50,135 nucleotides of DNA from Bacillota bacterium (lineage in GTDB: Bacteria > Bacillota > Clostridia > Lachnospirales > Lachnospiraceae): positions 1 to 50,135 of the forward strand of contig JAMPHT010000017.1 in the NCBI GenBank assembly GCA_023663285.1, in the 5' to 3' direction. Of the stretch, positions 2,237 through 18,903 are shown piece by piece. Made by a program: the position numbers and the translations under genes. Position 1 is the first letter of the stretch, and every line of letters starts with the position of its first letter. The notes under the pieces are model-generated. The model worked only from the letters and a program-made list of their open reading frames with translations, was not told the origin of the DNA and ran no database searches.

Positions 2237-2337
2237 AGTGATGTTGCCGGAATGTTTTTTCTATCCATGGTAAAGCTATAAAAACCCACTGGTCCACATA
2301 TAATTTTATGAGGATAACAGGAAACAGGGTGTCATCT

Positions 2338-3054: not shown

Positions 3055-3171
3055 AAATATGGAAATTATAGAATAGATCTATATAGGTGAGATGAGATAG
3101 AAAAGGTAGTGTGAAATATTCAGTTTTATGATATGATACTGGTAGAAAGTCCATAAGGGAAAGTAAAATTT

Positions 3172-3381
3172 ATGTGTCAGTTGATTCCGGTAAGAACGAA
3201 TTTTGATACAGAGATAGAAGTAGCTGGTATCAAAAAAGATTATATAGAGAATATCATAGAGGCTGCCGGTGTATGTACAAGAATATGCCAGATCATTTTA
3301 TTTGGGTCTGTAATAGAGAGCAGATGTACAGAGGACTCAGATGTTGATATGTTAGTTATCAGTGATACTTCCCGTTCATAG
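3172..3381 (+). pseudogene. Nucleotidyltransferase (MNT-type) fragment
   Basis: The 69-residue frame holds a nucleotidyltransferase active-site signature: IILFGSVIESR, then EDSDVDMLVI, matching the GSx10DxD pattern of MNT/polymerase-beta-like proteins. Reading continues in frame past the TAG at 3379-3381 with LYKDKGYREFLKRR, which is how the family normally goes on, so the stop is a premature nonsense mutation and not the natural end. A second stop follows 17 codons on, and the next segment matches an unrelated repeat (3423-3463). I infer an inactive remnant of an MNT antitoxin or enzyme. Confidence 0.65.
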
Positions 3382-3456
3382 CTCTACAAGGATAAAGGTT
3401 ATCGGGAATTTCTGAAAAGGCGTTACACCTAGCGGAAGGCTGGCTTAGAGAAATAG

Positions 3457-3687
3457 AGACTTGAATTCGGTGCTTTAAGCACTCTGACTTTTGAAACAAT
3501 ACATACACTTATTGAGTGGATTATATTGGAACATCTTATTTTGAAAACAAAGGAGAAATACTCTGTATTACATTCAACATATGAAGGGCTGCACTATTCA
3601 GAAAAGCTTAAGAAGTACCTGGAGGAAGAACTGATAGAGACCAAAGAGATCACAAAAGAGATTACCGGGGAGGTGAAAAATCTGTGA
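3457..3687 (+). pseudogene. Unrecognised 5'-truncated reading frame
   Basis: An open frame of 76 codons has no good start codon and ends in TGA at 3685-3687, overlapping the GTG start of the next gene, so it was probably once translationally coupled to it. The C-terminal half is charged and helical, ending in repeated EITKEITGE-like units. I do not recognise the family. The sequence just upstream (3423-3463) resembles 4837-4877, so this is part of a rearranged stretch. Confidence 0.35.
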
Positions 3688-4271
3688 CACCGGCGGAATT
3701 AAACAAATCATTCACACTTTTGTTAAATGAACTATTGGCAGACACTGATTTCAAAAAAAAGAAAATTGGGTGTTTGAAGCGGAGCATATCGGAATGTGAA
3801 CAGTTTTTTTCGTTCTATTTTACCAGGGATCGGGGATTGCCGGGAAACTTATACTCATTGACAGCCACTCTAAGTTTTTCTTTTCCTGAATTAAATCGAC
3901 TTACATATAACTTTCTTGTCAAGGAATATGATGAGCGTGCCAAGCAATTTCACACGGGAGCAGAGCCGCTTTATGCAATCGTTCCGGACAGGCTGCCAAC
4001 GCAATATAAATACTGCGCTGATGAATCGATCTATCGATTGGCAGAAATGGTGTCGGGAGATTTTCATGCCTATGCGCTTCCTTTTTTTGAAAAGTATGAT
4101 ACGCTGGAGAAGTTTGAGAATTACTTTGAGCGAAGGTTTCATGGAGATAAGCGCGGCTTTCGGGTAATTCACGAAGGCCAAAAGCCCGGAAGCGGTCAAA
4201 AATGTTGTTATGCTGCAGTCCTTTATTTCTTAGGGAAAAAAGAAAAATTGGAGGACCTGAATTTTTCATGA
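3684..4271 (+). CDS. Hypothetical protein, immunity-island member
   Basis: A 195-residue soluble protein with no signal peptide. The GTG start at 3684 is supported by GGGGAGGTG about 9 bases upstream and overlaps the preceding stop codon (GTGA). The N-terminal half (LNKSFTLLLNELLADTDFKKK) and the central aromatic strand region recall DUF4304-like proteins that are often found among toxin-immunity genes, but the match is weak and by eye only. The C-terminus (about residues 150-190) is basic and could be a joined foreign segment. The gene is AT-rich like its neighbours. Function unknown; an immunity role is inferred from context. Confidence 0.55.
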   Translation: MTPAELNKSFTLLLNELLADTDFKKKKIGCLKRSISECEQFFSFYFTRDRGLPGNLYSLTATLSFSFPELNRLTYNFLVKEYDERAKQFHTGAEPLYAIVPDRLPTQYKYCADESIYRLAEMVSGDFHAYALPFFEKYDTLEKFENYFERRFHGDKRGFRVIHEGQKPGSGQKCCYAAVLYFLGKKEKLEDLNFS

Positions 4272-4392
4272 TTCCATAATGGCTGTATGCTTTTATTTGA
4301 TTTAGGCTGTAATTTCCAATCTTTAGAACTGCATAGAAAATCATGAAATGTATGATTATTTATGGAAATTTTGGAAGATAGAGGAATAGTTT

Positions 4393-4767
4393 ATGAAAAA
4401 CTGTAGATTGGATCATAATGATTTATTAGATGACAGCCATTTACCTGTTTTAATGGTTATGAACATGATCAGCGAGGAACGTTTTTTAACAATACTTAAG
4501 GCCATAAACGGGGGAAACGGTTTTGGAGAGGAATATGGAGTCTGTACGTTACCAAATGACTTAGATGAATTTGATAAAGCAAACGGAGAGAGATTAGATG
4601 GTGTAGAATTTGCCTTGTATAGTGGGGAAGAAGTTGTAATTGACTTTGAAACATTTTATTTCTATTTGAAAATTTTATGTGGCAAATATGTAAAGGATAA
4701 TTTTGAACAGGTTGACGTTGTTGATAGATTGCTGGAAGAGTTTACCAGTAAATTTTTAAGAGAGTGA
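4393..4767 (+). CDS. CdiI-like immunity protein
   Basis: A small acidic cytoplasmic protein of 124 residues. The pattern of a helical start, then GGNGFGEEYGVCTLP, then a VEFALYSGEEVVIDFETFY strand block and a C-terminal helix resembles the CdiI family that neutralises ribonuclease toxins of contact-dependent inhibition systems. The family name is from memory of its conserved layout, not from a search. No cognate toxin gene is adjacent, so it would be an orphan immunity gene protecting against toxins of other strains. ATG start at 4393; the Shine-Dalgarno is weak (GATAGAGGA). Confidence 0.6.
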   Translation: MKNCRLDHNDLLDDSHLPVLMVMNMISEERFLTILKAINGGNGFGEEYGVCTLPNDLDEFDKANGERLDGVEFALYSGEEVVIDFETFYFYLKILCGKYVKDNFEQVDVVDRLLEEFTSKFLRE

Positions 4768-4791
4768 AATAATAACGGTGCTACCGGAAGG

Positions 4792-4881
4792 TATGACCTA
4801 CACTTTGCTGTCAGGGTTGATTCTGTGGAGAGGGATTTACATTTAGCGGAAAGCCGGCTTAAAGAAATGGGGCTTGATTAG
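4792..4881 (+). pseudogene. Gene-end fragment with a copy of the 3423-3463 repeat
   Basis: The frame reads YDLHFAVRVDSVERDLHLAE, then SRLKEMGLD, then stops at 4879-4881. It is in frame with, and directly behind, the stop of the CdiI-like gene, so it has no start of its own. Positions 4837-4877 match 3423-3463 at most bases, and both can encode LHLAE followed by a short charged tail. Its TAG overlaps the GTG of the next gene (TAGTG), the mark of a former coupled gene pair. The parent family is not recognised. Confidence 0.45.
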
Positions 4882-5171
4882 TGGACGAATTAAAACAATT
4901 ATTTAAGGAGTTACTTATAATAGTACAGCAATATGGAGATAACTCTTATAATACACAAAAAGAGATCATTAAAAAAATAATAGAGGATATGGATGGAGCC
5001 GGTGCTGACATTGATGATTTCTCCCAAGTCAAATGTGAGTACAAAAAACTGTTTTATCCCAAAAGTCCATTGTCGGAGTTTTATGTTTGGAGGGACGATT
5101 TTTCTGAAAGGGAAAAGGTAAATGGTTCGTTAGAAAATATAAGGAATAGATTGTGGGAACTGTTGCAGTGA
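4881..5171 (+). CDS. Small hypothetical protein, putative immunity protein
   Basis: A 96-residue acidic protein starting at a GTG that overlaps the preceding TAG, with GGGG about 8 bases upstream. It has a helical N-terminus, a central disordered acidic stretch, and a conserved-looking C-terminal motif, LSEFYVWRDDFSEREK. I have the impression that this ending recurs in short proteins next to toxin and immunity genes, but cannot name the family. No signal peptide or membrane segment. Function unknown. Confidence 0.5.
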   Translation: MDELKQLFKELLIIVQQYGDNSYNTQKEIIKKIIEDMDGAGADIDDFSQVKCEYKKLFYPKSPLSEFYVWRDDFSEREKVNGSLENIRNRLWELLQ

Positions 5172-5254
5172 TAGGAAGATGAAGAGAAAAAAGGTCCGAA
5201 GCAAAAAACTTCTGGAGAGATTCCAAAAGGATCAAAGAGGAGTTAAGAGCACTT

Positions 5255-5339
5255 CAAAAAGTGGGTCAATCGACGTCGCTTCCGCGCAAAAAGTATGAGA
5301 AAATGTTTTTTTCACAAAAAACGATTGCCCCACTTTTTC
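5255..5339. repeat. 85-bp sequence bounded by 18-bp imperfect inverted repeats
   Basis: The left arm at 5255-5272 (CAAAAAGTGGGTCAATCG) and the right arm at 5322-5339 (CGATTGCCCCACTTTTTC) pair at 16 of 18 positions. The interior is AT-rich. It sits in the 550-bp gap 5172-5722, which otherwise holds the two hairpins and one tiny frame listed below and no convincing gene. It could be a miniature mobile-element relic. Confidence 0.6.
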
Positions 5340-5437
5340 AGAAGGGTATTGACTTTTTGGGTAAATTAGTCGATAATTGTAGATAGAAAGCATGATAAAT
5401 GCTGTTGTTGATAGCCCGATATAGAGGGCACCCAGTT

Positions 5438-5470
5438 TGTCTGCGCATAATAGCGCAGACATTTTAATTT
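5438..5470 (+). terminator. Hairpin with T-rich tail, terminator-like
   Basis: A perfect 9-bp stem, TGTCTGCGC paired with GCGCAGACA, around an ATAATA loop, followed by TTTTAATTT. It could stop transcription arriving from the small immunity genes upstream. Confidence 0.55.
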
Positions 5471-5473
5471 ATG

Positions 5474-5508
5474 ACAATAGAATTTTCGCGAAGCGTGAAT
5501 TCTATTGT
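5474..5508. repeat. Perfect 11-bp inverted repeat
   Basis: ACAATAGAATT at 5474-5484 and AATTCTATTGT at 5498-5508 enclose 13 bases containing TTCGCGAA. It follows the previous hairpin directly. It may be a second terminator, a protein-binding palindrome or an end of a lost element. Confidence 0.55.
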
Positions 5509-5620
5509 TGCGCAGAAAGTACCTTGACCATAAACAGAAATCCGTTTTTGAGGGAATGATCAATATTGACTTTGGGGAATAAAGAGGGGATAATAGTTTT
5601 ATTGAATGGGGGAGACAACC

Positions 5621-5719
5621 ATGGGTAAAATTTTAAAATCTTCCTTTTGCACAAATAAATTCCATAGGATATGTGATCAAGCAACGTATGATTTCAATGT
5701 GGCAGTATGTAAGAGGTGA
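5621..5719 (+). CDS. Possible 32-residue peptide
   Basis: ATG 5621 has a good GGGGGAG ribosome binding site 7 bases upstream. The frame runs 32 codons to a TGA at 5717-5719, 3 bases before the next gene. It contains three cysteines and no recognisable domain. It may equally be a remnant that retained its start region. Confidence 0.25.
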   Translation: MGKILKSSFCTNKFHRICDQATYDFNVAVCKR

Positions 5720-5722
5720 CAA

Positions 5723-6190
5723 ATGAATTATTTATCTTTGGATGAAGTTATCAGCTCAGGGACAGAGTTTACCGACCCGGTGTGTTATTCAGGGGAGTAT
5801 GGAGAACAAGTGTATACTAAGGAAGCAGAGGAGGGTGGAATCCCCATAGAAGGAATACTTTATGAAAGATGGCCCAATGGATTATTGCATTATTATTGTT
5901 TCTACCGTGACGGTATTCCAAACGGACAGAGAGTGAGATTTTTTGAATCAGGTAAAATCAAGAGTCATTGTATCATGGATGCGGGGACAATTGACGGAGA
6001 ATATATCGAGTGGCATGAAAATGGTAACGTAAAGCTCAAGAAGCAATGCAAATATGGGTTGGTGCTGAAAATGCAGGAATTTGATGAGAGCGGAAATCTT
6101 TTAAAAGAAAAAAAAGAATTGAGCGACGGAGAGAAACGTATCTTTGAAAAGTGGGCAGCGCATTATGAAGGACGGACAGATAGCGAATGA
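5723..6190 (+). CDS. YwqK-like MORN-type antitoxin/immunity protein
   Basis: A 155-residue protein built of short beta repeats of the MORN/YwqK type: GILYERWPNGLLHYYCFYRDG, GQRVRFFESGKIKSH, and GEYIEWHENGNVKLKKQC, at about residues 45-120. In Bacillus, YwqK is encoded beside the LXG toxin YwqJ; proteins with these repeats are common immunity factors. AGAGGTG lies 6 bases before ATG 5723. A truncated second copy of its first ~90 bases occurs at 7454-7541. The next gene follows at once, suggesting co-transcription. The target toxin is not present. Confidence 0.7.
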   Translation: MNYLSLDEVISSGTEFTDPVCYSGEYGEQVYTKEAEEGGIPIEGILYERWPNGLLHYYCFYRDGIPNGQRVRFFESGKIKSHCIMDAGTIDGEYIEWHENGNVKLKKQCKYGLVLKMQEFDESGNLLKEKKELSDGEKRIFEKWAAHYEGRTDSE

Positions 6191-6191
6191 C

Positions 6192-6620
6192 ATGAAAGAC
6201 TGTAGATTAAAGAGTAAATGCATCTTCGCCATAAAATTGGCAGAAAGGGCTTGCTTATATTTACAGGAAAGCAGTGCTAAAGCTTTATTAGACGAAGCTA
6301 TAAAAGACTGTTGGCAGTGGGTACACAAAGAAGAAATTTCAGGAGAAGTACTTTATGATTTTCTGGATAACGAAGAGAATGGGTTCACATTATTTCAGGA
6401 AATGGAGGAAGATGAAAAAAGTGTAAGTGCGTGGGATTGTATTATAGATGCTGTTGCATATATAGCAAGAGCGGCATACGAAAAAGAAGGAGCAAAATAT
6501 TTACCGGAGCCTGTTGAAATAGTCGATGATGGTATTTTCGCACATATGGTGCATAGTTTGATTTTATGTGATAACTTGGAATGTGAATATATTGAAAAGA
6601 TATATACAGAGTGCTTATGA
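6192..6620 (+). CDS. Imm6-like immunity protein
   Basis: A helical cytoplasmic protein of 142 residues. The features I associate with the Imm6 family of polymorphic-toxin immunity proteins are an N-terminal CIFAIKLAERACLYL helix, the DCWQWV motif, YDFLDNEENGFTLFQEMEED, and the AWDCIIDAVAYIARAAYEKEG helix, followed by YLPEP. The start is uncertain. The frame is open from TTG 6144 and has ATG codons at 6165 and 6192; 6192 is preferred because it begins just after the upstream stop (6190) and gives the compact family-like N-terminus. Probably co-transcribed with the YwqK-like gene. Confidence 0.68.
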   Translation: MKDCRLKSKCIFAIKLAERACLYLQESSAKALLDEAIKDCWQWVHKEEISGEVLYDFLDNEENGFTLFQEMEEDEKSVSAWDCIIDAVAYIARAAYEKEGAKYLPEPVEIVDDGIFAHMVHSLILCDNLECEYIEKIYTECL

Positions 6621-6684
6621 GAATAAAGTAATATAAAATGATTATAGAAAAGGTATTAATAAGACATGAGAGGAAAAATACAGG

Positions 6685-6762
6685 ATGAAAAAGACTTTCC
6701 GGATCATATTTGACATAGTATCAGTTACCGAGGTCCGACGCTTTGAGGAAGGCGTTTTATAA
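6685..6762 (+). pseudogene. Fragment duplicated from the lipoprotein part of 7542-8618
   Basis: About 50 bases at 6714-6763 (encoding VSVTEVRRFEEGVL) closely match 8149-8198 inside the lipoprotein segment downstream (VSVTEVQRLEDGVLYELEVD), then the frame ends in TAA. The first ten codons are unrelated. It is a shuffled gene piece and not a functional gene. Confidence 0.6.
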
Positions 6763-6767
6763 TTTTA

Positions 6768-6799
6768 TTGACATAAAAATTGCTTGATGATAATATAAT
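6768..6799 (+). promoter_or_regulatory. Promoter for the structured leader
   Basis: A consensus -35 TTGACA at 6768-6773 is followed 17 bases later by TAATAT at 6791-6796, or with wider spacing by TATAAT at 6794-6799. Transcription would begin near 6803, giving a ~175-base untranslated leader. Confidence 0.7.
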
Positions 6800-6802
6800 A
6801 TT

Positions 6803-6962
6803 AAAGATAGGCAACTTGAGTGTCTATTAGCTAAAGATATATGTTGCTTGGTCAGACGAGTGACATATGGAGGCAATCTTGGGGTTGCATAGTTTCCACA
6901 ATCTGACTAGGTGCCTGCACCGAAAGAAAATATGCAGGGGCTCTGTATACAGGGCCTCTTTT
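6803..6962 (+). ncRNA. Structured 5' leader with terminator/antiterminator choice
   Basis: Nested helices can be drawn. GCAAC 6811-6815 pairs with GTTGC 6843-6847. TGGTCAGA 6849-6856 pairs with TCTGACTA 6902-6909, enclosing TGGA/TCCA (6868-6871 with 6895-6898) and GCAATC/GGTTGC (6873-6878 with 6883-6888). A 10-bp terminator hairpin with loop TATA and a TTTT tail spans 6936-6962, 16 bases before the next start codon. CCTGCA 6914-6919 can instead pair with TGCAGG 6933-6938, which would open the base of the terminator. That is the layout of an attenuator or riboswitch. It does not match a riboswitch class I can recognise. The gap 6621-6978 holds nothing else except the fragment and promoter listed separately. 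Confidence 0.5.
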
Positions 6963-6978
6963 ATGTAGGAGAAAAGAT

Positions 6979-7456
6979 ATGGCTGAAAAGACAGATGATC
7001 ATAAAGCAAAGAATATGCTTTATGATGCAGCGGTAAAATATGGCAAACTGCTGACTAAAGGATATCATATTATTTTAGGCAGAAAGGGAAAAGAATATCA
7101 TATACAGCTGAGATTTCCATATGACTCTTTTTTTCATTTGGTTGGTTTGCAGCATCTGACAGATTTAACATATCCGTCTAAAAATAAAGAGAGAATATAT
7201 AAAGAAATAATATAAAGAAATAATATATAAAGAAATAATAGAGGAAAGCCTTACATATGAAATGATTAGTAAATCTCAATATTTTGATGTTTTTTACATT
7301 AAAGAACGGTTAAAATATTTGGATTATCTTGAAAGTATGCTGGATTCCTGCAAACTGACCTATTTAATAAATCCACAGGAATATGCAAAGTATACAAAAA
7401 TAAAGGCGGATTTTTTATTTGAACATAATATTTTTGCGGGAGAAGCGGTCATTTGA
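6979..7456 (+). pseudogene. PBECR4-like nuclease-domain gene, broken by a tandem repeat
   Basis: The first frame (6979-7215) has KYGKLLTKGYHIILGRKGKE and HLVGLQHLTDL; the second (7262-7456) has IKERLKYLDYLESMLDS and TKIKADFLFEHNI. Together these match my memory of the PBECR4 family, barnase/EndoU/colicin-like RNases found in toxins and mobile elements. Deleting 28 bases of a triplicated 13-bp unit at 7198-7238 joins the frames into one protein of about 149 residues. The C-terminal end is also missing: the frame runs into a fragment of the YwqK-like gene at 7454. The start ATG 6979 follows GTAGGAG by about 8 bases. It is likely an inactivated toxin domain. Confidence 0.6.
7198..7238 (+). repeat. 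13-bp unit repeated three times
   Basis: TATAAAGAAATAA occurs at 7198-7210, 7211-7223 and 7226-7238, with an extra TA between copies two and three. The added 28 bases are not a multiple of three and create the stop that breaks the PBECR4-like gene. Confidence 0.9.
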
Positions 7457-7541
7457 ACTATTTATCATTGGATGAAGTTATCAGCTCCGGGACAGAGTTT
7501 ACTGGTCAGGTGTGTTATTTGGGGGAGTATGGAGGACAAGA
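7454..7541 (+). pseudogene. Truncated second copy of the YwqK-like gene start
   Basis: Bases 7454-7535 match 5723-5804 nearly throughout. They encode NYLSLDEVISSGTEFT as in the full gene, but with TTG in place of the ATG start. Similarity ends at about 7535-7541, exactly where the next gene begins. The fragment now supplies the GGAGG ribosome binding site of that gene. Confidence 0.8.
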
Positions 7542-8618
7542 ATGTTTGATGAATTTGATAAATATATTTCTATGTTTGCAGAGGAAGATTTTGCTGTTGA
7601 TTACTGGTATGATGAAGGGGCTGAAATAGCAGAAAATATGCTTTGTGAATTTAAGGAAGAAGATTGGAAAATATTATTGAAAATAGTACCTGAAAGAAAG
7701 ATACAATGGCAAAAACGTGTAGCATATTGTATGCATGACAAGAGTGATCAAAACCAATTAAAAGTATTATTAAACCTAGTAGAAACGGATGACGATGAAT
7801 TACTTGAAATTGTAGTGGATTCTTTGAGAGGTTTTACAAGCGAAGAGAGTTTAAAGTTAATATACGCAGATTCGCGAATGGTTTCTAAAATCAAGAAGTT
7901 AATGCCTAAAGTAGGAGATGCGACAAAAAGAGTATTTGAAGAATTCCTGAAAGTAAATAGGATATTGGCTATATTATCAGTTTTCTTTCTTTTATGCGGA
8001 TGTTCTAAGGAGCAAATAAATCAGGAAGCAAATCAGGAAGCTCCCTCTGATGAGCAGATCGGCTATTTTTTCCCGCAGGAGGTAGATTCTCAGGAATATA
8101 CAGCTGTATTTTCCGGATTTTCCGGGCAGCCGGAACAAATGAAGGTGACAGTATCAGTTACCGAGGTTCAGCGCCTTGAGGACGGTGTTTTATATGAATT
8201 AGAAGTAGACAGTGACGAAGAAGGGTTTGACAGATATGAGGAATATAGAGGAAAGTGGTGGTACATAGGTCTCTTTTTTGTGCAGGGGGAGGACATCTAC
8301 TTTATCCGCGGTGAGGATGTCCAAAATGAATTCCGGTCGGCAGAGGAGATTCAAGAGGCAGGGACACTGGTGTGTAATGAAGCCGGAAAAGAAGATTCCC
8401 TCGGTGAGGACATAAAAGGCTGGCATGAATATATTGCAGCGGATGGAGACAGGAGAGAGTATCATGCTTACAGTGATCTGGTGGAAACAGGATATTATGA
8501 GTGTTTTATCTGGGAAGCCGGAAGCGGGCTGATCGAATACCGGAGCGGATACGGAGCGCAGTCCAATCACATAGAGTTACATCTGTCCGGCGGAGATAGC
8601 TATGAAGTTTACAGATGA
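7542..8618 (+). CDS. Chimeric protein: helical immunity-like domain fused to a lipoprotein
   Basis: The frame of 358 residues has two unrelated halves. Residues 1-135 are acidic and helical with HEAT-like spacing (RVAYCMHD, LLNLVETDDDELLEIVVDSLRGF), like Imm30-type immunity proteins. Residues 139-154 are a complete lipoprotein signal (VNRILAILSVFFLLCGC, lipobox Cys154). The rest is an acidic extracytoplasmic-type domain rich in Tyr and Trp. A signal in mid-protein cannot work normally, so this looks like an in-frame fusion of two genes. An internal TTG at 7965 might start the lipoprotein separately. ATG 7542 is chosen because GGAGG lies 7 bases upstream, inside the YwqK fragment. Confidence 0.6.
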   Translation: MFDEFDKYISMFAEEDFAVDYWYDEGAEIAENMLCEFKEEDWKILLKIVPERKIQWQKRVAYCMHDKSDQNQLKVLLNLVETDDDELLEIVVDSLRGFTSEESLKLIYADSRMVSKIKKLMPKVGDATKRVFEEFLKVNRILAILSVFFLLCGCSKEQINQEANQEAPSDEQIGYFFPQEVDSQEYTAVFSGFSGQPEQMKVTVSVTEVQRLEDGVLYELEVDSDEEGFDRYEEYRGKWWYIGLFFVQGEDIYFIRGEDVQNEFRSAEEIQEAGTLVCNEAGKEDSLGEDIKGWHEYIAADGDRREYHAYSDLVETGYYECFIWEAGSGLIEYRSGYGAQSNHIELHLSGGDSYEVYR

Positions 8619-8627
8619 AAGCAGTTA

Positions 8628-8978
8628 GTGGTGAATGATGTGAGTTATTTAAGTTTGACCAAAAGGATAATGCAGAATGAGCTGACGAATGAAGAACTGG
8701 TTGAATGCCTGAATATTCCGAATGTCCCGGTGCTTCAGCAGACAATGCTTAAATTAATAGAAAGAAATGTTCAAAATGCAGATGTACACATCAAGCTTTT
8801 GGAATATAGTAACTATATGGATAACAGATTTAAGATCCTGGGGCTATGCAAGATCGGGCATTTGGCTGTCTATGCTTTAAAAAGATTAGGGTACATAGAA
8901 GATTTCTCAAAAATATATGAAGAATTGCCGGATGAGGACAAGGAGCAGATCGCGATCTTGGAGCAGGCATTTGTTTGA
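8628..8978 (+). CDS. Small helical hypothetical protein
   Basis: An all-helical 116-residue protein without signal or membrane segments. Its helices (LTKRIMQNELTNEELVECL, FKILGLCKIGHLAVYALKRLG) suggest a short HEAT-like or immunity-type fold, but I do not recognise a family. The start is uncertain between GTG 8628 and GTG 8631; no strong ribosome binding site is seen. It begins 10 bases after the chimeric gene and is the last member of the AT-rich island, just before the promoter of the methyltransferase operon. Confidence 0.5.
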   Translation: MVNDVSYLSLTKRIMQNELTNEELVECLNIPNVPVLQQTMLKLIERNVQNADVHIKLLEYSNYMDNRFKILGLCKIGHLAVYALKRLGYIEDFSKIYEELPDEDKEQIAILEQAFV

Positions 8979-9028
8979 TTGACGGAAGCTGAAAAGGTAT
9001 GATACAATGCAATAAGTGATTCATACCT
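8979..9028 (+). promoter_or_regulatory. Promoter of the defence-like operon with flanking inverted repeat
   Basis: TTGACG at 8979-8984 and TACAAT at 9003-9008 are spaced 18 bases. A perfect 8-bp inverted repeat, AGGTATGA at 8995-9002 and TCATACCT at 9021-9028, brackets the -10 box and the expected start of transcription. This would suit repressor control of the operon. Confidence 0.55.
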
Positions 9029-9062: not shown

Positions 9063-10493
9063 ATGTCAAAACAGGATAAAAATTGTCAGGTTCCCACCCC
9101 GATTCAGTATGTGGAACAGATGCTTGACTATGTGGGATATAAACATGATTTATGGGGACGCAAGGTATTGGAAAATTCCTGTGGAGAAGGTAATATACTT
9201 GTAGAGATAGTGAAAAGATACATTGCTGATGCCAAAAGCCGCCAATATACTCCGAAGGAGATTGCCGACGGTTTGGAGAAAGATATTGCAGCATATGAGG
9301 TGGATCAGGAAAAAATAGAAATATGTCTCAGGCGTCTGAATGATGTGGTTTCTTCAGAGGGTCTGCCAAAGCCCGGATGGAATATCCGGCAGCAGGATTT
9401 TTTAAAAAGTGACGAGCAAAACGCAGAATTTATAATCGGTAACCCACCATATATTACTTATCATGATCTTACACAGAAAGAAAGAGAGTTTCTACAGAAG
9501 AATTTTTCCGTATGCCGAAAAGGACGGTTTGATTATTGCTATGCTTTTATCGAGGCAAGTGTGAAGGCTTTGGCGGATAACGGCAGGATGATATACCTGA
9601 TACCGTTCAGTATCTTTCGCAATCGGTTTGCGGCAGGATTAAGAGCCTTTCTTAAGGATTATGTTACAAAGATCGTGGACTACAGGAGCATGAATGTATT
9701 TCCCGGAATAACCTGTTCCACGTCGCTGCTGGTGTGTGAAAACGGATGCATACAGAATGAAGTCGAGTATGTGGATTTTGCAGCACAAAAAAAGATTTGT
9801 CTGGATCGTTCTTCGCTGGATCCTGATGGGGGGAAGTGGATCTTTGACAGAACAATAAGCGGAAACAGAAGGTTTGGCGATTATTTCAGCGTTCATAACG
9901 GTGTTGCGACGCTATGTAATGAGGCTTTTTTGTTTTCGGCGGATGCAGAGGCAAAAGATTGCTATATCGTTGGAGGAATGCCGATAGAAAAGAAAGTGAC
10001 GTTACCTGCTGTAAGCACTAAAAGCAGCAGGGCTGTGAAAAAAGGCGGGGAGACATTCCGAATTATTTTTCCCTATAAGCTGACAAACGGTAAAATCGGC
10101 CATTATTCGGAAGAAGAATTTGAAAATCAGTATCCCTGTGCCCGGAAGCATTTATATCAATATCATAATGAGTTGAAACGCAGAAAGGCAGATGAAAGGG
10201 CCAAATGGTTTGAATACGGAAGAACCCAGGCATTAGAAGAGGTCTTTGGGGAAAAGCTTGTGCTGCCCATGGTGATAACAAATTCCACAAAAGCGTATAT
10301 TGCCCCCAAAGATGCAATTCCGTATGCGGGGTACTTTGTCACGTTAAGGCCGGGCTCCGGTATGACGCTGAAGGATGCAAAGGCAGCGCTGGAAAGCGCT
10401 CAGTTTTACCAATATGTCCAAGAGGTAGGAACACCCACAACTATATCTTCTTATAGAGTATCCGTACACGATATCAATGAATTCATGTTTTAG
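9063..10493 (+). CDS. Class I adenine-specific DNA methyltransferase
   Basis: The 476-residue protein carries the catalytic NPPY motif of N6-adenine methyltransferases at residues 127-130 (IGNPPYITY) and a motif I SAM-binding loop, LENSCGEGNILVEIV, near residues 39-53. The layout, with the C-terminal half as a likely target-recognition region, resembles Eco57I/TaqI-type modification enzymes. It probably methylates host DNA to mark self. It is the first gene of a tight four-gene operon: 9 bases separate it from the ATPase/kinase gene. The ribosome binding site before ATG 9063 (AAAGGG) is weak and distant, perhaps limiting expression. The recognition sequence is not deducible. Confidence 0.9.
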   Translation: MSKQDKNCQVPTPIQYVEQMLDYVGYKHDLWGRKVLENSCGEGNILVEIVKRYIADAKSRQYTPKEIADGLEKDIAAYEVDQEKIEICLRRLNDVVSSEGLPKPGWNIRQQDFLKSDEQNAEFIIGNPPYITYHDLTQKEREFLQKNFSVCRKGRFDYCYAFIEASVKALADNGRMIYLIPFSIFRNRFAAGLRAFLKDYVTKIVDYRSMNVFPGITCSTSLLVCENGCIQNEVEYVDFAAQKKICLDRSSLDPDGGKWIFDRTISGNRRFGDYFSVHNGVATLCNEAFLFSADAEAKDCYIVGGMPIEKKVTLPAVSTKSSRAVKKGGETFRIIFPYKLTNGKIGHYSEEEFENQYPCARKHLYQYHNELKRRKADERAKWFEYGRTQALEEVFGEKLVLPMVITNSTKAYIAPKDAIPYAGYFVTLRPGSGMTLKDAKAALESAQFYQYVQEVGTPTTISSYRVSVHDINEFMF

Positions 10494-10502
10494 GGGAGAA
10501 TA

Positions 10503-12932
10503 ATGACTAAAAATCTTTATTTCAAAACAAACTCAAGGCATATAGGTCAGCTGGGAAGAGAGCTTGTAACGGATTTTGTGACGGCTTTGGTTGAACTTGT
10601 TAAAAATTCCTATGATGCAGATGCAGGCAGTGTGCAGATCACCATTGAAAATGCCAATACGCCGGAAGCATCCATTATTATCACGGATACGGGCAGCGGT
10701 ATGACCCAGGAAGAATTTGAGAAGAAGTGGATGGTGATCGGAACAAGCAATAAGGTCAGCGAGCCCTATACCCCCAAAGGCAGGAAGCGGACAGGCAAAA
10801 AAGGAATCGGACGTTTTTCCGTGGAGAGGCTTGCTGAAAGGGCAACGATATATTCTTTTACCGATCATGAGGATTTTAAGGTGTCCATTAACTGGAATCG
10901 TTATGAAGAGATTTCAGTGGAGGCATTAAAGCAAAGAATTCGGATACTGCAGGAAGGAAAAGATGTTTCTGCGGCAAAGTATATTGCCAATAAACTGGAT
11001 TTTTTTCTGTTGTCCACAGGAGTTGAGGAGCAGGACAGAAGGGTCGTGGAGCAATATGCGGAGGCGGCGGATAATTACGAGCTGCTTTTTCAGAAAGAAG
11101 TTTTGGCAGATATAGAAAAACGGGTCATCCCTGTATTGGAAAAGCTGGAAGGCAGTGAATACGGTATTGATGAAATCGGAAACCCGCTGGAGCAGATAGC
11201 GGATCGAAGTGGGGAAGAGAGCTACAGGCTGCTAAAGGAGCTTAAAGGCAGGGAGAAAACTACAGAAAACGACAAGAAAGTAACGGGAATGGTATTGGTG
11301 CTTGAGCGTCTGCGGGATAACTGGCGTCAGAAAGATATCGATAAGCTTCAGAAGGAACTGAGGCTTCTTGTGGCACCTGAATTTATCGAGAAGGATCCTT
11401 TTTATATCGAACTTGTGGCAGACCAGTTCAACATACCTGAGGAAATGTCTATCAATGATATTCTATATATGAGTTATGCCAAGCTGGAAGCAGGCATTCT
11501 GGATGGGGGGAAAAGATCTGTGATCGCCTATTGTGATAATGACGGAAATAAGCGGAAGATCACAGATCAGTATGAAACGCCGTTACTGTGCGGAGATATT
11601 TCTTTTGAACTGTACTTTTTTTTAAGGGATGCGGTTCATATGAGAAATGAGAATTATGACTATCGCTTTGCGCTGCGGATCCTTGATACATATTGCGGGA
11701 TCAAGATATACAGGGATAATTTCAGGGTAAAGCCCTATGGCGAGATCGGTAACGACTGGCTGGAGCTGGACAAGAATAAGGTAAAGGATACACATGGATA
11801 CAGAGTGGGTAATAACCAGACGGTTGGCGTCATCAAGATTTCGGACAGAACGAATCCCTTACTGACTGACGCGACAAACAGAGAGGGAATTATTGAGAAT
11901 CAGGCATATGAACAGTTAAAAGAGTTTATACTTAAATGTATCAACGTTATCTCAGAAATCAGACGAGAGGTATATGAGGAATCCAAATCGGAGCTGGATA
12001 AGGCTAAAGAGGCGAAGAAACAGCATCAGCAAAGGGAGGAGCAGCACAGGAGAGAGCAGGAGGAACGCTTTCAGCATACAATGGGCCTGATGAAAAGCGG
12101 GGCCGCCGTAAATGAGGTGCAGAGCGCCTTTGAACAGTGGAAGCGGGACGAGGAGCAGTATCAGAAAGAAAAGGAAGCGCAGTACGAACAGACGGAGGAT
12201 GCGTACCGGAAGGTATTGGAATACCAGGAAAATGAATTGTCCATGTACAAAAATCTTGCCACACTGGGTATCTTAACAGGTAATTTCGGGCATGAGACAC
12301 AGGACATTATTTCCAGGATCGGCAACAGCATTGCATATTTTGAAGCGTTGACGCCAACAATAGAAAACAGGCATTTCGGAAATATTACAGGTATACTGAA
12401 ATCAGATTTTGCACGGATAGAGGGCTACAGCTCCATGATCGTGGAGTTTTTGCGCAAACATAAGAGAGATGTAAAGGAAAACCTGGACTTTGGTGCGGTG
12501 CTGAATGGTATCTGTCGTTTGTATCTGGGGATGCTTCAGGAGTTTAAGATCGAGTTTGCCTGGAACGCACAGTATGACATCAGTTTCACCATGCGGCAGA
12601 TAGATTTGGAGTCTATTATAATCAATATGATAACAAATGCGTTTGAGCAGTTGAGGAGCAGTGCGCGGAGGGTTATTCATATACGGTTCAGGCAGGAGGA
12701 GGAAAATATTTTCCTGGAATTTGAGGACAGCGGGAATGGAGTACCGGCGGGGAAGCGTGAAGAGATTTTTCAGGCATTTGTGACTACAAAGGAAGATGGT
12801 ATAGGATTGGGGCTTAATATTGTTAGAGATATTGTAGTAAGCTATGGCGGAACAATAAGCGTATTGGATTCAGAAGAATTAGGCGGTGCAAAGTTTCTGA
12901 TTCACTTTACGAAGAAGGAGAAGCATCCATGA
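10503..12932 (+). CDS. Dual-GHKL protein: MORC/Hsp90-like ATPase fused to a histidine-kinase module
   Basis: The 809-residue protein has two ATP-binding Bergerat folds. The N-terminal one has ELVKNSYDADA (N35), the ITDTGSGM lid motif and GKKGIGRFSVERL, the pattern of MORC/MutL/Hsp90-type ATPases seen in some restriction-like systems. The middle is about 300 residues with a charged coiled coil near residues 490-580. The C-terminal part has a DHp-like helix (GILTGNFGHETQDII, candidate phospho-histidine) and kinase N, G1 and G2 boxes (IINMITNAFEQL, FEDSGNGVP, GIGLGLNIVRDIV). There is no membrane segment, so it senses something cytoplasmic. It has a GGGGAG site before ATG 10503, and its end overlaps the receiver gene by 4 bases (ATGA). 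Confidence 0.88.
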   Translation: MTKNLYFKTNSRHIGQLGRELVTDFVTALVELVKNSYDADAGSVQITIENANTPEASIIITDTGSGMTQEEFEKKWMVIGTSNKVSEPYTPKGRKRTGKKGIGRFSVERLAERATIYSFTDHEDFKVSINWNRYEEISVEALKQRIRILQEGKDVSAAKYIANKLDFFLLSTGVEEQDRRVVEQYAEAADNYELLFQKEVLADIEKRVIPVLEKLEGSEYGIDEIGNPLEQIADRSGEESYRLLKELKGREKTTENDKKVTGMVLVLERLRDNWRQKDIDKLQKELRLLVAPEFIEKDPFYIELVADQFNIPEEMSINDILYMSYAKLEAGILDGGKRSVIAYCDNDGNKRKITDQYETPLLCGDISFELYFFLRDAVHMRNENYDYRFALRILDTYCGIKIYRDNFRVKPYGEIGNDWLELDKNKVKDTHGYRVGNNQTVGVIKISDRTNPLLTDATNREGIIENQAYEQLKEFILKCINVISEIRREVYEESKSELDKAKEAKKQHQQREEQHRREQEERFQHTMGLMKSGAAVNEVQSAFEQWKRDEEQYQKEKEAQYEQTEDAYRKVLEYQENELSMYKNLATLGILTGNFGHETQDIISRIGNSIAYFEALTPTIENRHFGNITGILKSDFARIEGYSSMIVEFLRKHKRDVKENLDFGAVLNGICRLYLGMLQEFKIEFAWNAQYDISFTMRQIDLESIIINMITNAFEQLRSSARRVIHIRFRQEEENIFLEFEDSGNGVPAGKREEIFQAFVTTKEDGIGLGLNIVRDIVVSYGGTISVLDSEELGGAKFLIHFTKKEKHP

Positions 12933-13429
12933 AAGAGTTGCTGGGTTTATATATCGAAGACGATGTGAACAATGTTATGGTGCAGCAGGCCAGATTTGAT
13001 CTGTTTGAAGGAATCAGCATAAAAGGACTGGACGAACTGCCGGAAAAGGTTGAGGATTTTTATCCTGTCATTGTCAGAGACCACATAGATTTCCTGATCA
13101 TTGACCACGAATTGGATAAGCAGACGGTATCTTATAAGGGATGCGATGCATTAAATGAGATACGGAAGTATGACAGCACGATATATGCGATCCTGCTGAC
13201 CAATTATCCTCTGGCGGATTACAAGGAGGAGCTGGGGGCTTATGACTATCAGCTGACAAAAAGTGAAATGAAAGAACCCGGAAAACTGGAGGAAGTAGTT
13301 CAAAAAATCAAGAGGGCCTGTGAATTAAGACGTGATAATAAATTGTTGGCGGAAATGGAACAACGGCAGAAAGAGAAAGAGGAATTGATTCGTGAGTTAA
13401 AGAGTCTTGCAGCAGGTAAGAAAGGGTAA
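12929..13429 (+). CDS. Stand-alone receiver-domain protein
   Basis: The 166-residue protein reads as a response-regulator receiver: an acidic pocket at IEDD (residues 9-12), phospho-acceptor Asp59 in FLIIDHELD, Thr91 in ILLTNYP and Lys111 in QLTKSE. These are the standard catalytic positions at nearly standard spacing. The last 40 residues form a charged helix in place of a DNA-binding domain, so the output is probably protein-protein contact. The overlap with the kinase gene strongly implies that the kinase's C-terminal module phosphorylates it. The following HNH nuclease gene is the plausible target of its control. AAGGAG lies upstream of ATG 12929. Confidence 0.82.
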   Translation: MKELLGLYIEDDVNNVMVQQARFDLFEGISIKGLDELPEKVEDFYPVIVRDHIDFLIIDHELDKQTVSYKGCDALNEIRKYDSTIYAILLTNYPLADYKEELGAYDYQLTKSEMKEPGKLEEVVQKIKRACELRRDNKLLAEMEQRQKEKEELIRELKSLAAGKKG

Positions 13430-13432
13430 CCA

Positions 13433-14356
13433 ATGGATTACATAAGAAAAAAGCGCTGGGTAAGGTACAGTCACATAAAATGCAAAATGTACTTACGCAA
13501 TGATTTTCATTTTGAATGTGCCTATTGCCGGATGCGGGAACAGGATACGGGCGCTTTCGGTGAGGAAGGTTTTGAAAAAGATCATTTTGCCGCAAGGTCA
13601 TCGGGAGAGCAAAGTAAACGTGATTCCTACGATAATATGGTTTATGCCTGTTCTAAATGCAATGGCACGAAATCAGATCAAGGTGTTGAACTGCTGCTGG
13701 ATCCCTGTAAGGACAATATTTATACAGGGGACAGACCTCATGTTACAAGCCTTGGTAAGAACGGAGAATATCAATTGGTCGGCAATACCGAGGAAGGCCG
13801 GCAATACATAGAGTCGCTGCAGTTGAATGCAAGATTTTACAGAGATATGCGGGAAAGGCAGGAGCAGGCATACGAAGGCGATCATGAGCTGGAAAAACTT
13901 ATAAATGAGATTTCGGGCAAATATGCGGTGTCGGAGGACTTACTGCAAAGGCTGCGGAAGCTGGTGAGCAGTAATTATCTGATGCAGTCGGATAATCCGC
14001 AGAATACCGCATTCAGATGCGGACGTTCAAAAGCCGGAAAGGCATTTCAGGAAGTATTGAGTATTTTGGATGAGCTATCGGTTTCATATGAATTGCTTTT
14101 TGCTGAAAAGGATTTTGATATTAAAATGCGATATAATGACAGGGATTATTTATGCGAGATCGTACTGAATGACAGCGCGGAAAGGCCGGTCAGAAATATC
14201 CGCATGAACGCGGAGCAAAGAGAAAGCTGGCTGGCAGAGAGCGGAGAGCATGGAATTCTATATTATTATCTAAAGACCGGAAGGCTGGAATTTTACAATA
14301 TTGGTGAAGAAAATGAGTTGCTGGCCTGCTTAAGGAACGAAACCGTTCAATGCTGA
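13433..14356 (+). CDS. HNH endonuclease
   Basis: The 307-residue protein has an N-terminal HNH nuclease with a zinc-binding frame: CAYC at about residues 27-30, KDHFAA, then YDNMVYACSKCNGTKSD. Two CxxC pairs and the His/Asn core are present; the last position is Lys in the CNxxK form common in HNH restriction enzymes. The C-terminal ~200 residues are unrecognised and may bind DNA or the receiver. It starts 3 bases after the receiver gene. Together with the methyltransferase it gives a cut-and-mark pair. It ends one base from the end of the convergent protease gene. Confidence 0.87.
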   Translation: MDYIRKKRWVRYSHIKCKMYLRNDFHFECAYCRMREQDTGAFGEEGFEKDHFAARSSGEQSKRDSYDNMVYACSKCNGTKSDQGVELLLDPCKDNIYTGDRPHVTSLGKNGEYQLVGNTEEGRQYIESLQLNARFYRDMRERQEQAYEGDHELEKLINEISGKYAVSEDLLQRLRKLVSSNYLMQSDNPQNTAFRCGRSKAGKAFQEVLSILDELSVSYELLFAEKDFDIKMRYNDRDYLCEIVLNDSAERPVRNIRMNAEQRESWLAESGEHGILYYYLKTGRLEFYNIGEENELLACLRNETVQC

Positions 14357-15948: not shown

Positions 15949-18903
15949 ATGAAAACAGATATTCTGTCTTTAAAAAGTCTTTATCAATTTCTGACAAACA
16001 ATGATTATCCGGTGTATTCAGAAGGGATCATCACAAGGAAAAACCACAGAGGACTTACACTGACAAAATTCTGGCAGGACAATATCCTGTATGATTTTCG
16101 CAACCGCAAATGCGGCAGACAGATATGGAGAAGCAGCGAGGGGCGGAACCGTTACATTTCAGATATTTGTAACCGCAGCGGACGGCTGGGCTGTTATGGG
16201 GAGTATGCGGAGGAGATCTGCCATGCGGCCACGCAGGAGGCTGTAGCCCGGCAGATACAGCAGTTTATGAGCGTATTGCTGGAACGGAACTATCATCATG
16301 AGGTTTTCTGCCAGAAGCTTCCGGCTTATATCAGGCTGATAGCGGAATGGGACGACAGCTTTTCGGAGGCTGCGCAGAGATTTTTTACAGAGGCGCTGGG
16401 GAAGGAGCAGGTTTTTGCCGATCAGGGAAGCAGCGGGCGGCTTTTCTACTGCGGCTACTTTCTCACCATGCTTATGCTTCATGCCCTGTCGGGAAATGGG
16501 GAGGGAGAGGGCGCGCTGTGCAGGCTCCGGGAAGATCCGGCGCTTTCCATAGAAGCTCTGGGCGGCTTCTGCCTGAAAAACGCTGCGGAAAAGAGCAGGA
16601 AAGAGGTCATCTGGCTTACCGGTCAGAACAATGAGCTTTGCAGCGCGCCGCTTCCCAGACAGCATTTCTTCGGCAGAGAGAAGGAGCTTTTTGAACTGCG
16701 GCAGATGCTGCTTGCGGGCGGGAAATACCTGATCAGCGGTATCGGCGGAATCGGCAAGACGGAGCTGATGCGCCAGCTGCTTCGATGCTGCGACGAGGAG
16801 GCCCTGACAGATTACATTTGCGTCATTCAATATGAGGGAAGCCTGATGGCAAGCTTTGTAAAGGCGTTTCCTCAGATACACGGCATAAAGGCGGAAGATA
16901 ATTTCAAGGAAGCGCTGGCCTGTATCCGCTCCCATGAGGGAGAGCGGGTGCTGATCATAATTGATAATCTGGGGGAATATGAGGAAGAAGAGCTGGCCGT
17001 TCTTAAGACGCTGCCCGCCGTTATCTTTATTACCTCAAGATACCATGAGCTGAAAGGATTTACCACCTATCCCGTGCAGATCATGGACCGTAGCGCGGGA
17101 GATCTGATCTTCCGGGATAATTATGAAAAGAATCTGACGGAGAAAGACAGACAGGCCCTGTCGGAGATCCTGGATGCCGATATCTGGCGGCACACTCTGA
17201 CTTTGCGGCTGCTGGGGCGCACCGCAGCGGTAAGAGGCTGGACCATACCGGAGGTAAAGAAGCTGCTGGATCAGGGGATCCTGCCGGCGTCCATGCAGGA
17301 GCAGGATATTTATCAGGGCTTGCAGCAGATGTACCGCAGGATGTATGCGGATCTTGGAACGAAGAAGATAAACGGGCTGCTGCAGACATTTGCGGTATTG
17401 CCCTATCAGAGCTATACGGCGGAATTTGCAGAGAAATTTTTCGCGGGCTTTATGGATGAGGAACAGTCCATAGAGGAGGAGCTGGAAAAATTATATATTG
17501 CAGGACGGCTGGAAAAGCATCCAAACGGGTATTCCATGCATCCCTTTATGGCGGAATGTGTCCGCAATAATGGGGGGGGCGTGAGAGAAAAGGATATCGG
17601 GCCTTTTCTGGATGCGCTGGCGGCTGCCTGGGGAGACAGGGAAAAAGGACCTGACACGGAGTCGGTGGAGAATCTGCTGCTGGAGTGGGGAAGGGCCTGC
17701 GAGGGTCTGGATCAGGCGCTTTTGGCGGCCACACAGCTGCTTCCCTCCCTTGTCTTAAAGCTGACCGGAAGGTGCAGCAGGAAGCTTTCCGGGCTGGTTC
17801 TGGCAGCCTTTGCCATCCGGTGTAATACCCTGGGAAGTCCGGGAATCGAGGCAGAGCAGCTGGAAGCCGTGAAAAAGAAGCTGGGGCGCCTGGATGAGGA
17901 GGAAAAGCTGGTCCTCTGCGTTCTGCAGTGTATGGACGGCGGCGGGAACCCGGAGAAGCTGGAGAAGGAGTGCGCCGCTTTGCTGGAAAGTCCCGGAGTC
18001 GGCAGAAGAGGAAAATTTCTGCTCATAGGGCAGCAGGGACTGATGTTTTTCAGAAAGGGCAGTCTGGAAAAGGTGGAGCAGGCGGCTAATGTGCTGGAGG
18101 AATATCAGGGGGAAGAGCACGCAAAGGAGATCTCATGTTTCCTGCATACGGTGATGGCACAGCAGCAGGGAGACCTGGAAAGCTATGAGAAATGGCTACT
18201 GGAGGGTTACGAGGCGGCAAAGACGGAAGGCCACGAAAAGGGAGCGGTCATGATGGATACTCTCTCCGCCCTGGCGGACCTTTACTATGCTACCAGGCAG
18301 TTTGAAAGGGCGGAGCAGTTCCTGCAGGAGCTTGAAGAAAACTTTGCAGACCAGCCGGGTGTGAATGTCCGCATGATGCTGTCCTTTTACCGGGGCGGAC
18401 TGGCGTTGTTCAAAGAAGAGGAAGGCTTTGGGATCCAACAGCTGGAGGAAGCCTGCAGGCTGGCTAAGAACTTCTGGTCAGGCGTGGACGACGGCGCGTA
18501 TGCCACGTTTTTGACGAATCTTGCCATGGCATACAATAAGGCGGGCCGCAGGGAAGAATCCGCAGAGAGCTATCAGCAGGCCATTGCCCTTCTGGAGAAC
18601 AAACCGGGCTATGAATACGACAGGAGCAGGACGATCAACAACATGAGCGTGATGTATCTGGACTGGGGGAAACCCAAGGAGGCGCTCCACTGGCTGGAAA
18701 AGGTCCGGCCCTTTGTATGCGGGACGGGAGGTCCGGGACTTGCGGAGAGCAGCTACAATCTCTCCAGGGCGTGGCGGCAGCTTGGCGACAGGGAGAAGGA
18801 GCTGCAGTACCTGAAGGAGGCGGCGCCGCTGCTGGAGCAGTACTATGGCAGCGTGCATCCCAAGGTGGCGGATGTAAGGAAAAGGCTGAGAGACGTCCAA
18901 TAA
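15949..18903 (+). CDS. STAND-type NTPase with TPR-like C-terminus
   Basis: The 984-residue cytoplasmic protein has an N-terminal domain of about 230 residues that I do not recognise, then a STAND/NB-ARC-like NTPase: the linker HFFGREKEL, Walker A GIGGIGKTE (residues 264-272), Walker B VLIIIDNL near residue 336, and a sensor FITSRYHE. A winged-helix-like stretch follows, then from about residue 620 to the end a long helical array with TPR-like pairs (AMAYNKAGRREESAESYQQA, WRQLGDREKELQYLKEAA). Such proteins act as ligand-triggered switches in signalling and phage sensing. It is monocistronic, with its own promoter and terminator. The N-terminal domain would be the effector or output, unidentified. 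Confidence 0.85.
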   Translation: MKTDILSLKSLYQFLTNNDYPVYSEGIITRKNHRGLTLTKFWQDNILYDFRNRKCGRQIWRSSEGRNRYISDICNRSGRLGCYGEYAEEICHAATQEAVARQIQQFMSVLLERNYHHEVFCQKLPAYIRLIAEWDDSFSEAAQRFFTEALGKEQVFADQGSSGRLFYCGYFLTMLMLHALSGNGEGEGALCRLREDPALSIEALGGFCLKNAAEKSRKEVIWLTGQNNELCSAPLPRQHFFGREKELFELRQMLLAGGKYLISGIGGIGKTELMRQLLRCCDEEALTDYICVIQYEGSLMASFVKAFPQIHGIKAEDNFKEALACIRSHEGERVLIIIDNLGEYEEEELAVLKTLPAVIFITSRYHELKGFTTYPVQIMDRSAGDLIFRDNYEKNLTEKDRQALSEILDADIWRHTLTLRLLGRTAAVRGWTIPEVKKLLDQGILPASMQEQDIYQGLQQMYRRMYADLGTKKINGLLQTFAVLPYQSYTAEFAEKFFAGFMDEEQSIEEELEKLYIAGRLEKHPNGYSMHPFMAECVRNNGGGVREKDIGPFLDALAAAWGDREKGPDTESVENLLLEWGRACEGLDQALLAATQLLPSLVLKLTGRCSRKLSGLVLAAFAIRCNTLGSPGIEAEQLEAVKKKLGRLDEEEKLVLCVLQCMDGGGNPEKLEKECAALLESPGVGRRGKFLLIGQQGLMFFRKGSLEKVEQAANVLEEYQGEEHAKEISCFLHTVMAQQQGDLESYEKWLLEGYEAAKTEGHEKGAVMMDTLSALADLYYATRQFERAEQFLQELEENFADQPGVNVRMMLSFYRGGLALFKEEEGFGIQQLEEACRLAKNFWSGVDDGAYATFLTNLAMAYNKAGRREESAESYQQAIALLENKPGYEYDRSRTINNMSVMYLDWGKPKEALHWLEKVRPFVCGTGGPGLAESSYNLSRAWRQLGDREKELQYLKEAAPLLEQYYGSVHPKVADVRKRLRDVQ

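Follow-up and report, generated by a model that had tools for sequence, protein, structure and literature searches.

A putative mobile defence operon from a Lachnospiraceae genome in which a MORC-like sensor kinase and a receiver may gate a PtuB-like nuclease

This analysis concerns a four-gene operon on contig JAMPHT010000017.1 (assembly GCA_023663285.1) of a Bacillota bacterium from the family Lachnospiraceae; the whole analysed stretch of 50,135 nucleotides is referred to as the window. The operon probably serves in defence as a mobile system: its MORC-like sensor kinase would phosphorylate a receiver, which in turn would gate a PtuB-like nuclease, with a methyltransferase protecting the cell itself. 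Its four open reading frames lie head to tail in the order methyltransferase, kinase, receiver and HNH protein, with spacings of 9, -4 and 3 bases; positions, strand and gaps are all as an earlier first-pass annotation of this DNA had given them. The following features are discussed:

9063..10493, + strand: N6-adenine-type DNA methyltransferase (Eco57I/type II methyltransferase family, NPPY motif), 476 amino acids, with Eco57I and PADLOC MTase_II matches
10503..12932, + strand: dual-GHKL sensor histidine kinase, 809 amino acids
10503..10910, + strand: N-terminal MORC/MutL-type GHKL ATPase domain (kinase residues 1-136)
12291..12293, + strand: codon of the phospho-acceptor His597
12597..12911, + strand: C-terminal histidine-kinase ATPase HATPase_c (kinase residues 699-803, E 1.7e-26)
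12929..13429, + strand: receiver protein, 166 amino acids (NF052378; D59, T91 and K111 intact)
13433..14356, + strand: PtuB-like HNH nuclease with a C-terminal restriction-endonuclease-like domain (both by predicted fold), 307 amino acids
13517..13681, + strand: HNH/zinc motif (HNH protein residues 29-83)
14021..14335, + strand: predicted restriction-endonuclease-like fold (HNH protein residues 197-301)
8979..9008, + strand: weak promoter-like site 5′ of the methyltransferase gene, 10/12 matches

In addition to the HATPase_c domain, Pfam places a HATPase_c_3 domain at residues 25-136 of the kinase (E 1.1e-23). Compared by sequence with the Protein Data Bank, residues 27-115 are similar to MORC3 (E 0.0015) and residues 567-799 to the kinase core of ZraS (E 2.7e-15), which is the closest protein there, and residues 15-134 match NF050001, the model of the BbrUII/HgiDII restriction enzymes (E 1.4e-20). 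Besides His597, the kinase exhibits an N-box (N708/N712) and a G-box (D742 and G766/G768/G770); no tetratricopeptide repeat (TPR) family was found in it at E ≤ 0.1 in the Pfam search. The receiver shows a weak match to Response_reg of Pfam, which lies under the cut-off (E 0.005), and is a member of the NCBIfam family NF052378, the 'LM5578_1851 family response regulator' (256.5 bits, E 7.7e-77; curated cut-off 150). Its residues E10, D11, D59, T91 and K111 are all present, and no output domain was found by the Pfam and NCBIfam searches. The methyltransferase includes an Eco57I domain (E 2.6e-18), an N6_Mtase domain (E 2.7e-7) and the NPPY motif, and its match to the PADLOC model MTase_II has an E of 1.5e-51. 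The fourth protein contains a Pfam HNH domain (E 4.5e-7), and its predicted model resembles the PtuB fold with the restriction-endonuclease-like fold as a second domain. This agrees with the first-pass annotation, which had named an NPPY methyltransferase, a MORC/Hsp90-type ATPase and a histidine-kinase core within one protein, a receiver with intact Asp59, Thr91 and Lys111, and an HNH nuclease; the second domain of the HNH protein is new to the present analysis.

That annotation had also made its proposal dependent on the gene order recurring elsewhere, and the order is indeed conserved. Loci were gathered by similarity of the kinase alone, giving 92 in total, namely the window, 80 genome contigs (the best 80 of 571 confirmed loci) and 11 plasmid loci (among 30 matches listed, from 1168 matching records), and the gene order was read by walking along the strand from each kinase. 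The succession kinase, receiver, HNH protein occurs in 34 of the 92 loci, a count that includes two (L034 and L093) with a split kinase gene. A methyltransferase, located upstream or downstream of the core genes and once on the opposite strand (L069), is present in 30 of these 34, and the four without it (L052, L054, L083, L094) all run off contig ends. As the methyltransferase counts rest on models built from the gathered loci and on motifs, a methyltransferase of another family could escape them. Judged from record titles, the gene set spans about ten phyla. Viral contigs returned a further 56 loci; seven of the 36 examined were of the HNH type, and all seven contained a methyltransferase. 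Compared with locus L043, the ratio of nonsynonymous to synonymous substitution rates (dN/dS) is 0.10 for the methyltransferase, 0.06 for the kinase and 0.14 for the HNH protein; for the receiver dS is saturated and dN is 0.067. The survey supports a recurrence of the four-gene set beyond chance and suggests that it forms one conserved functional unit.

The residues required for a phosphorelay are invariant throughout. His597 is retained in all 88 aligned kinases and Asp59 in all 82 receivers; the 33 copies from viral contigs that were gathered afterwards keep both without exception. Both residues lie outside the peptide patterns of the genome and the viral scans. The N-terminal ATPase retains E31, N35 and D62 in 88 of 88 kinases. 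As E31 and N35 belong to the peptide pattern by which most loci were found, their invariance in the genome set is biased and proves less, whereas E31, which is outside the pattern of the viral scan, is retained in 33 of 33 viral-contig kinases. The kinase alignment covers 88 of the 92 loci (L034, L093, L052 and L108, being split or cut, were left out) and the alignment of downstream proteins 83 (L051 and L057 have none, those of L070, L077 and L109 are short, those of L039, L071, L111 and L118 too long); three viral loci (L133, L137, L150) lack a downstream gene. The downstream protein of L122 was rejected as a receiver, as it is NAD-epimerase-like and its aligned Asp a chance match, which reduces the number of receivers from 83 to 82. 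NF052378 matches 17 of the 83 downstream proteins (E ≤ 1e-5), and Lys111 is a lysine in 28 or 29 of the 34 HNH-type receivers, depending on the alignment. In the HNH proteins, C29, C32, H51, N68, C73, C76, N77 and K80 are retained in 34 of 34; D229 and E242 of the restriction-endonuclease-like domain are retained in all ten sequences of the window's clade. Two loci appear to be natural broken copies: in L034, from a Klebsiella variicola plasmid, and in L093 the kinase gene is in pieces and the frames of receiver and HNH protein are still open.

The type of effector follows the kinase. On a tree of 87 kinases (L080 additionally left out) the HNH label needs one change, compared with 24.9 in shuffles, and the metallo-beta-lactamase (MBL) label two, compared with 15.7; none of 500 shuffles was as low. 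Among the 18 HNH loci outside the window's clade, distances correlate at 0.62 between kinase and receiver, 0.67 between kinase and HNH protein and 0.51 between receiver and HNH protein; those involving the methyltransferase are 0.30 with the HNH protein, 0.27 with the receiver and 0.39 with the kinase. Over all 27 HNH loci with a methyltransferase, the corresponding values are 0.60, 0.42 and 0.42, and 0.37, 0.19 and 0.12. The methyltransferases of these 27 loci fall into four sequence clusters, whereas kinase and HNH protein each form a single one (with thresholds that differ by protein). Four members of the window's clade (L046, L047, L049, L050) are 49-51% identical to the window in the kinase, 28-33% in the HNH protein and only 17-18% in the methyltransferase. 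These observations support a nuclease that is coinherited with the kinase, and the system seems to be built on a core of kinase, receiver and nuclease, to which the methyltransferase is added as a replaceable part.

Other proteins occupy the effector position elsewhere. A protein with an MBL-fold motif takes the place of the HNH protein in 18 of the 92 loci, and Pfam recognised HNH in 34 and Lactamase_B in 16 of 68 effector-position proteins. The MBL-fold sister class includes L033, L036, L068, L073, L074, L086, L088, L091, L098, L099, L102, L103, L108, L113, L114 and L121. Most of the other gathered loci have longer receivers; in L085, L042, L040 and others these reach 340-470 residues and end in a C-terminal portion of no recognised fold, and some adjoin C5 methyltransferases. 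In such loci the receiver itself may carry the effector. A protein family of about 230-290 residues with the motifs H.D, HP.YH and PR..H.P.D, in which no shared Pfam family was seen, follows the long receiver in L089, L096, L105, L112, L119, L101, L104, L110, L082, L037 and L090 and is a candidate for a third effector class.

If these parts act together as proposed, the N6-adenine methyltransferase, for which the domain family is clear, would mark the host genome. The kinase would form a dimer, whose N-terminal MORC/MutL-type ATPase clamp senses a cue of invasion, perhaps unmodified or phage DNA. Closure of the clamp would reach the C-terminal core, where His597 is autophosphorylated and passes its phosphate to Asp59 of the receiver; this relay is suggested by the invariance of both residues together with the coinheritance of the genes. 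Lacking any known output domain, the receiver presumably acts by contact, turning the PtuB-like HNH protein on or, in a reverse version, off. The nuclease would then destroy the nucleic acid of the invader or abort the infection, with DNA as the favoured target because a methyltransferase is present in every HNH-type locus with resolvable context. Overall, this would resemble Septu or a retron with a kinase-receiver switch in place of the ABC ATPase PtuA. Beyond the window, it is about as likely as not that a broad class of immunity exists for which the catalogue searched has no name: a MORC ATPase fused to a histidine kinase would signal by way of a receiver to plug-in nucleases, and methylases would be freely exchanged; the nucleases would be PtuB-like HNH proteins, MBL-fold proteins or possibly parts of the longer receivers.

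An ordinary type II-like restriction-modification pair, in which the HNH protein alone cuts unmethylated sites while kinase and receiver do no more than control its timing or hold it back (so that, for instance, an island arriving in a new cell does not cause cleavage of the host's own DNA), would fit the near-constant methyltransferase as well as the resemblance of the kinase N-terminus to the ATPase part of BbrUII/HgiDII. It is nevertheless unlikely, as HNH proteins outside the window's clade have only 189-259 residues (uncut genes) with no target-recognition domain seen in them, and as a stand-alone enzyme should track its methyltransferase, whereas one HNH cluster is combined with four of methyltransferases. 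Moreover, a study on retron-Eco7 describes PtuB as non-toxic when PtuA is absent (PMC11555353). A switch for abortive infection appears improbable too. There, the HNH protein would cleave nucleic acid of the host, tRNA or another kind, and the kinase would guard the methyltransferase, its product or its inhibition. The constant presence of a methyltransferase in HNH-type loci is explained more simply if it protects the cell's own DNA, and a guard dedicated to a single methyltransferase is difficult to reconcile with methyltransferase families that are exchanged while the kinase stays the same. Very improbable is a repair or regulatory module (mismatch processing as by MutL/Vsr, or a transcriptional two-component system) with the methyltransferase as a neighbour by history. 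The MORC/MutL type of the ATPase would suit it, and in a 2021 paper sister kinases are tied to C5 methyltransferase and Vsr genes (PMC8011034). However, the missing receiver output domain in Pfam and NCBIfam, the patchy distribution, the integrase, repressor and tail genes adjoining several copies and the coinheritance of kinase and effector all argue against such a module.

Several observations also weigh against the preferred reading, a receiver-gated nuclease with a self-protecting methyltransferase. For PtuAB effectors, tRNA-Tyr or nicked DNA is reported as the target (PMC13096335, PMC11555353); by analogy the window nuclease might act on tRNA-Tyr in place of DNA, and as it is PtuB-like its role in restriction is not assured. 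The Lys of the ExK motif is absent from the restriction-endonuclease-like domain in all ten sequences of the window's clade. The single HNH branch on the kinase tree has a weak support of 22, the kinase-HNH correlation of the 27-locus set barely exceeds that of HNH protein and methyltransferase (unlike outside the window's clade), and coinheritance of the HNH protein is no proof that the receiver controls it. Across the wider family, neither the methyltransferase nor canonical receiver chemistry is found throughout, since the active-site Lys is kept in only two of 17 MBL-type receivers and no methyltransferase was found in the available flanking DNA of the cyanobacterial MBL loci L103, L114 and L121. 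Finally, the nearby genes of the window with recognised domains (an Imm6 immunity protein, an M48 peptidase and a STAND-like NTPase) include no catalogued defence system.

The guanine-cytosine (GC) content is 0.34-0.44 over 4-14 kb of the window, compared with 0.51-0.55 further right, and of 397 genomes searched in the window's family only the one that holds the window yielded the kinase. A homologue of the window gene 2308-3054, which is read as a putative polysaccharide deacetylase, directly precedes the operon in L043 and L045, where the window has about 6 kb in between. Ten flanking proteins were scanned in relatives of the window, of which three are JetA, JetB and JetC of Wadjet after the operon of L043, one is a type III methyltransferase (L050) and one matches the PADLOC candidate PDC-S57 (L047); the other five, from L044-L048, gave no match. 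Some of the viral contigs look like prophages. In L129 the operon has an integrase on one side and a CI-like repressor on the other; nicking at an origin of replication is also annotated there, and this locus may be P2-like. L140 adjoins an integrase and a replication initiator, and L144 a tape-measure gene. Prophage and integrase-type sites are common places for defence cargo. On a Hymenobacter plasmid (L037), a set of kinase, receiver, unknown protein and methyltransferase adjoins genes annotated as a Piwi-domain protein and a large DNA methyltransferase.

Within the window, the GC-poor stretch 3054-9000 (0.34-0.37 at 4-8 kb), which separates the putative deacetylase gene from the operon, resembles immunity cargo of polymorphic toxins. 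It encodes Imm6 (6144-6620), a MORN-repeat protein (5723-6190) and several small proteins of no recognised kind. Downstream, 15949-18903 encodes a STAND-like protein of 984 residues with an AAA_16-type NTPase match, TPR repeats and weak PADLOC matches, possibly a further defence gene. The promoter-like site 8979..9008 is considered weak as the region is not richer in such sites than shuffles (10 compared with a mean of 11.6).

In PADLOC-DB 2.0.0 of 2023, no single named or candidate system covers kinase and receiver, so the first-pass annotation's check for an already named system gave no match. The window receiver matches no PADLOC family and the window kinase shows only partial matches, to REase_II, TmtA and MzaB; among 42 kinases, REase_II models match 33 and 32, TmtA models four and one, and MzaB and PDC-M43B one each. 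The candidate model PDC-M01B matches 22 of 68 effector-position proteins; it does not match the window HNH protein within the E limits used, and no PDC-M01 model matches any kinase scanned. A literature search found no experimental test of the gene set.

Detocs consists of a kinase, a receiver and exchangeable effectors, senses through TPR repeats and has as its best-known effector an enzyme that degrades ATP. The window operon would share this logic of kinase, receiver and exchangeable effector; it differs by its MORC-like ATPase, nuclease and methyltransferase. With Septu it shares the predicted PtuB fold. Unlike Septu and the PtuAB of retron-Eco7, it lacks the ABC ATPase PtuA, its neighbours being the kinase-receiver pair and the M48 peptidase, and adds a methyltransferase and the predicted extra restriction-endonuclease-like domain. 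MORC/MutL-type GHKL ATPases were described beside methyltransferases and HNH or other nucleases in restriction-modification operons (Iyer 2008, PMC2292703), a combination also seen in the window. In the accessible text of that paper the MORC partners are helicases, methyltransferases and nucleases and a histidine-kinase half is undescribed, and the words 'receiver' and 'two-component' occur nowhere in its main text.

The first-pass annotation had proposed that the ATPase senses foreign or unmodified DNA and that the phosphorylated receiver controls the nuclease. A conserved unit, an intact kinase-receiver pair, a kinase-coinherited nuclease and defence-type surroundings in some relatives bear out part of this interpretation, in which the sensing of DNA and the licensing or restraining of the nuclease are the hypothetical side. 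Its remark that it knew of no described system of this kind is not supported in that wording. In the Listeria island LGI1, LM5578_1850-1853 were listed as a sensor kinase (1852), a response regulator (1851) and, on either side of this pair, two 'restriction modification components' (1850, 1853) (Gilmour 2010, PMC2834635). The window receiver belongs to the family named after LM5578_1851, and methyltransferase, kinase, receiver and HNH protein parallel 1853-1852-1851-1850, an adjacent pair with restriction-modification-type genes on both sides. From gene order, 1850, 1852 and 1853 may be orthologues, and which of 1850 and 1853 is methyltransferase or nuclease is likewise suggested by order only; the available part of the report treats the set in one sentence, without domain analysis or function.

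A second precedent are the two-component-like systems of HEF_HK and Response_reg_2, in which dual-HATPase kinases and receivers occur by restriction-modification genes (Bellieny-Rabelo 2021, PMC8011034). As in the window, an N-terminal HATPase_c_3 and a C-terminal HATPase_c are joined in one kinase, next to a receiver with Asp, Thr and Lys and nearby restriction-modification genes, and a link to paraMORCs is drawn. HEF_HK (PF19191) was found in none of 17 genomes or records including the window's, compared with three of 149 other genomes over the cut-off as a control; Response_reg_2 (PF19192) was likewise found in none of the 17, there without a positive control of its own, and is outside the 15 families matched by the 83 downstream proteins. 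Three HEF_HK-matching proteins are homologous to the gathered kinases, with best phmmer E values of 1.8e-29 to 2.6e-34 among the 92; their best matches L092, L107 and L078 belong to the long-receiver class and not to that of the window. Judged by such similarity, HEF_HK is a sister kinase-receiver family and the window kinase is its kin. C5 methyltransferases and Vsr are prominent there, in contrast to the N6 methyltransferase and PtuB-like HNH protein of the window, and the 2021 paper speculates on control of restriction-modification and not on a receiver-gated nuclease.

Two-component genes beside restriction-modification genes were, therefore, already known, and new here are the N6 methyltransferase, the PtuB-like nuclease and the exchangeable effectors. 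If the proposal is right, it would explain those neighbourhoods remarked on in 2010 and 2021 and would place restriction-type defence under two-component control, with one switch and interchangeable nucleases and methylases across many phyla and on mobile DNA. The PtuB nuclease of Septu would be a module re-used under several unrelated switches, and, should the broad class exist, restriction would be a phosphorylation-gated decision instead of an automatic cut.
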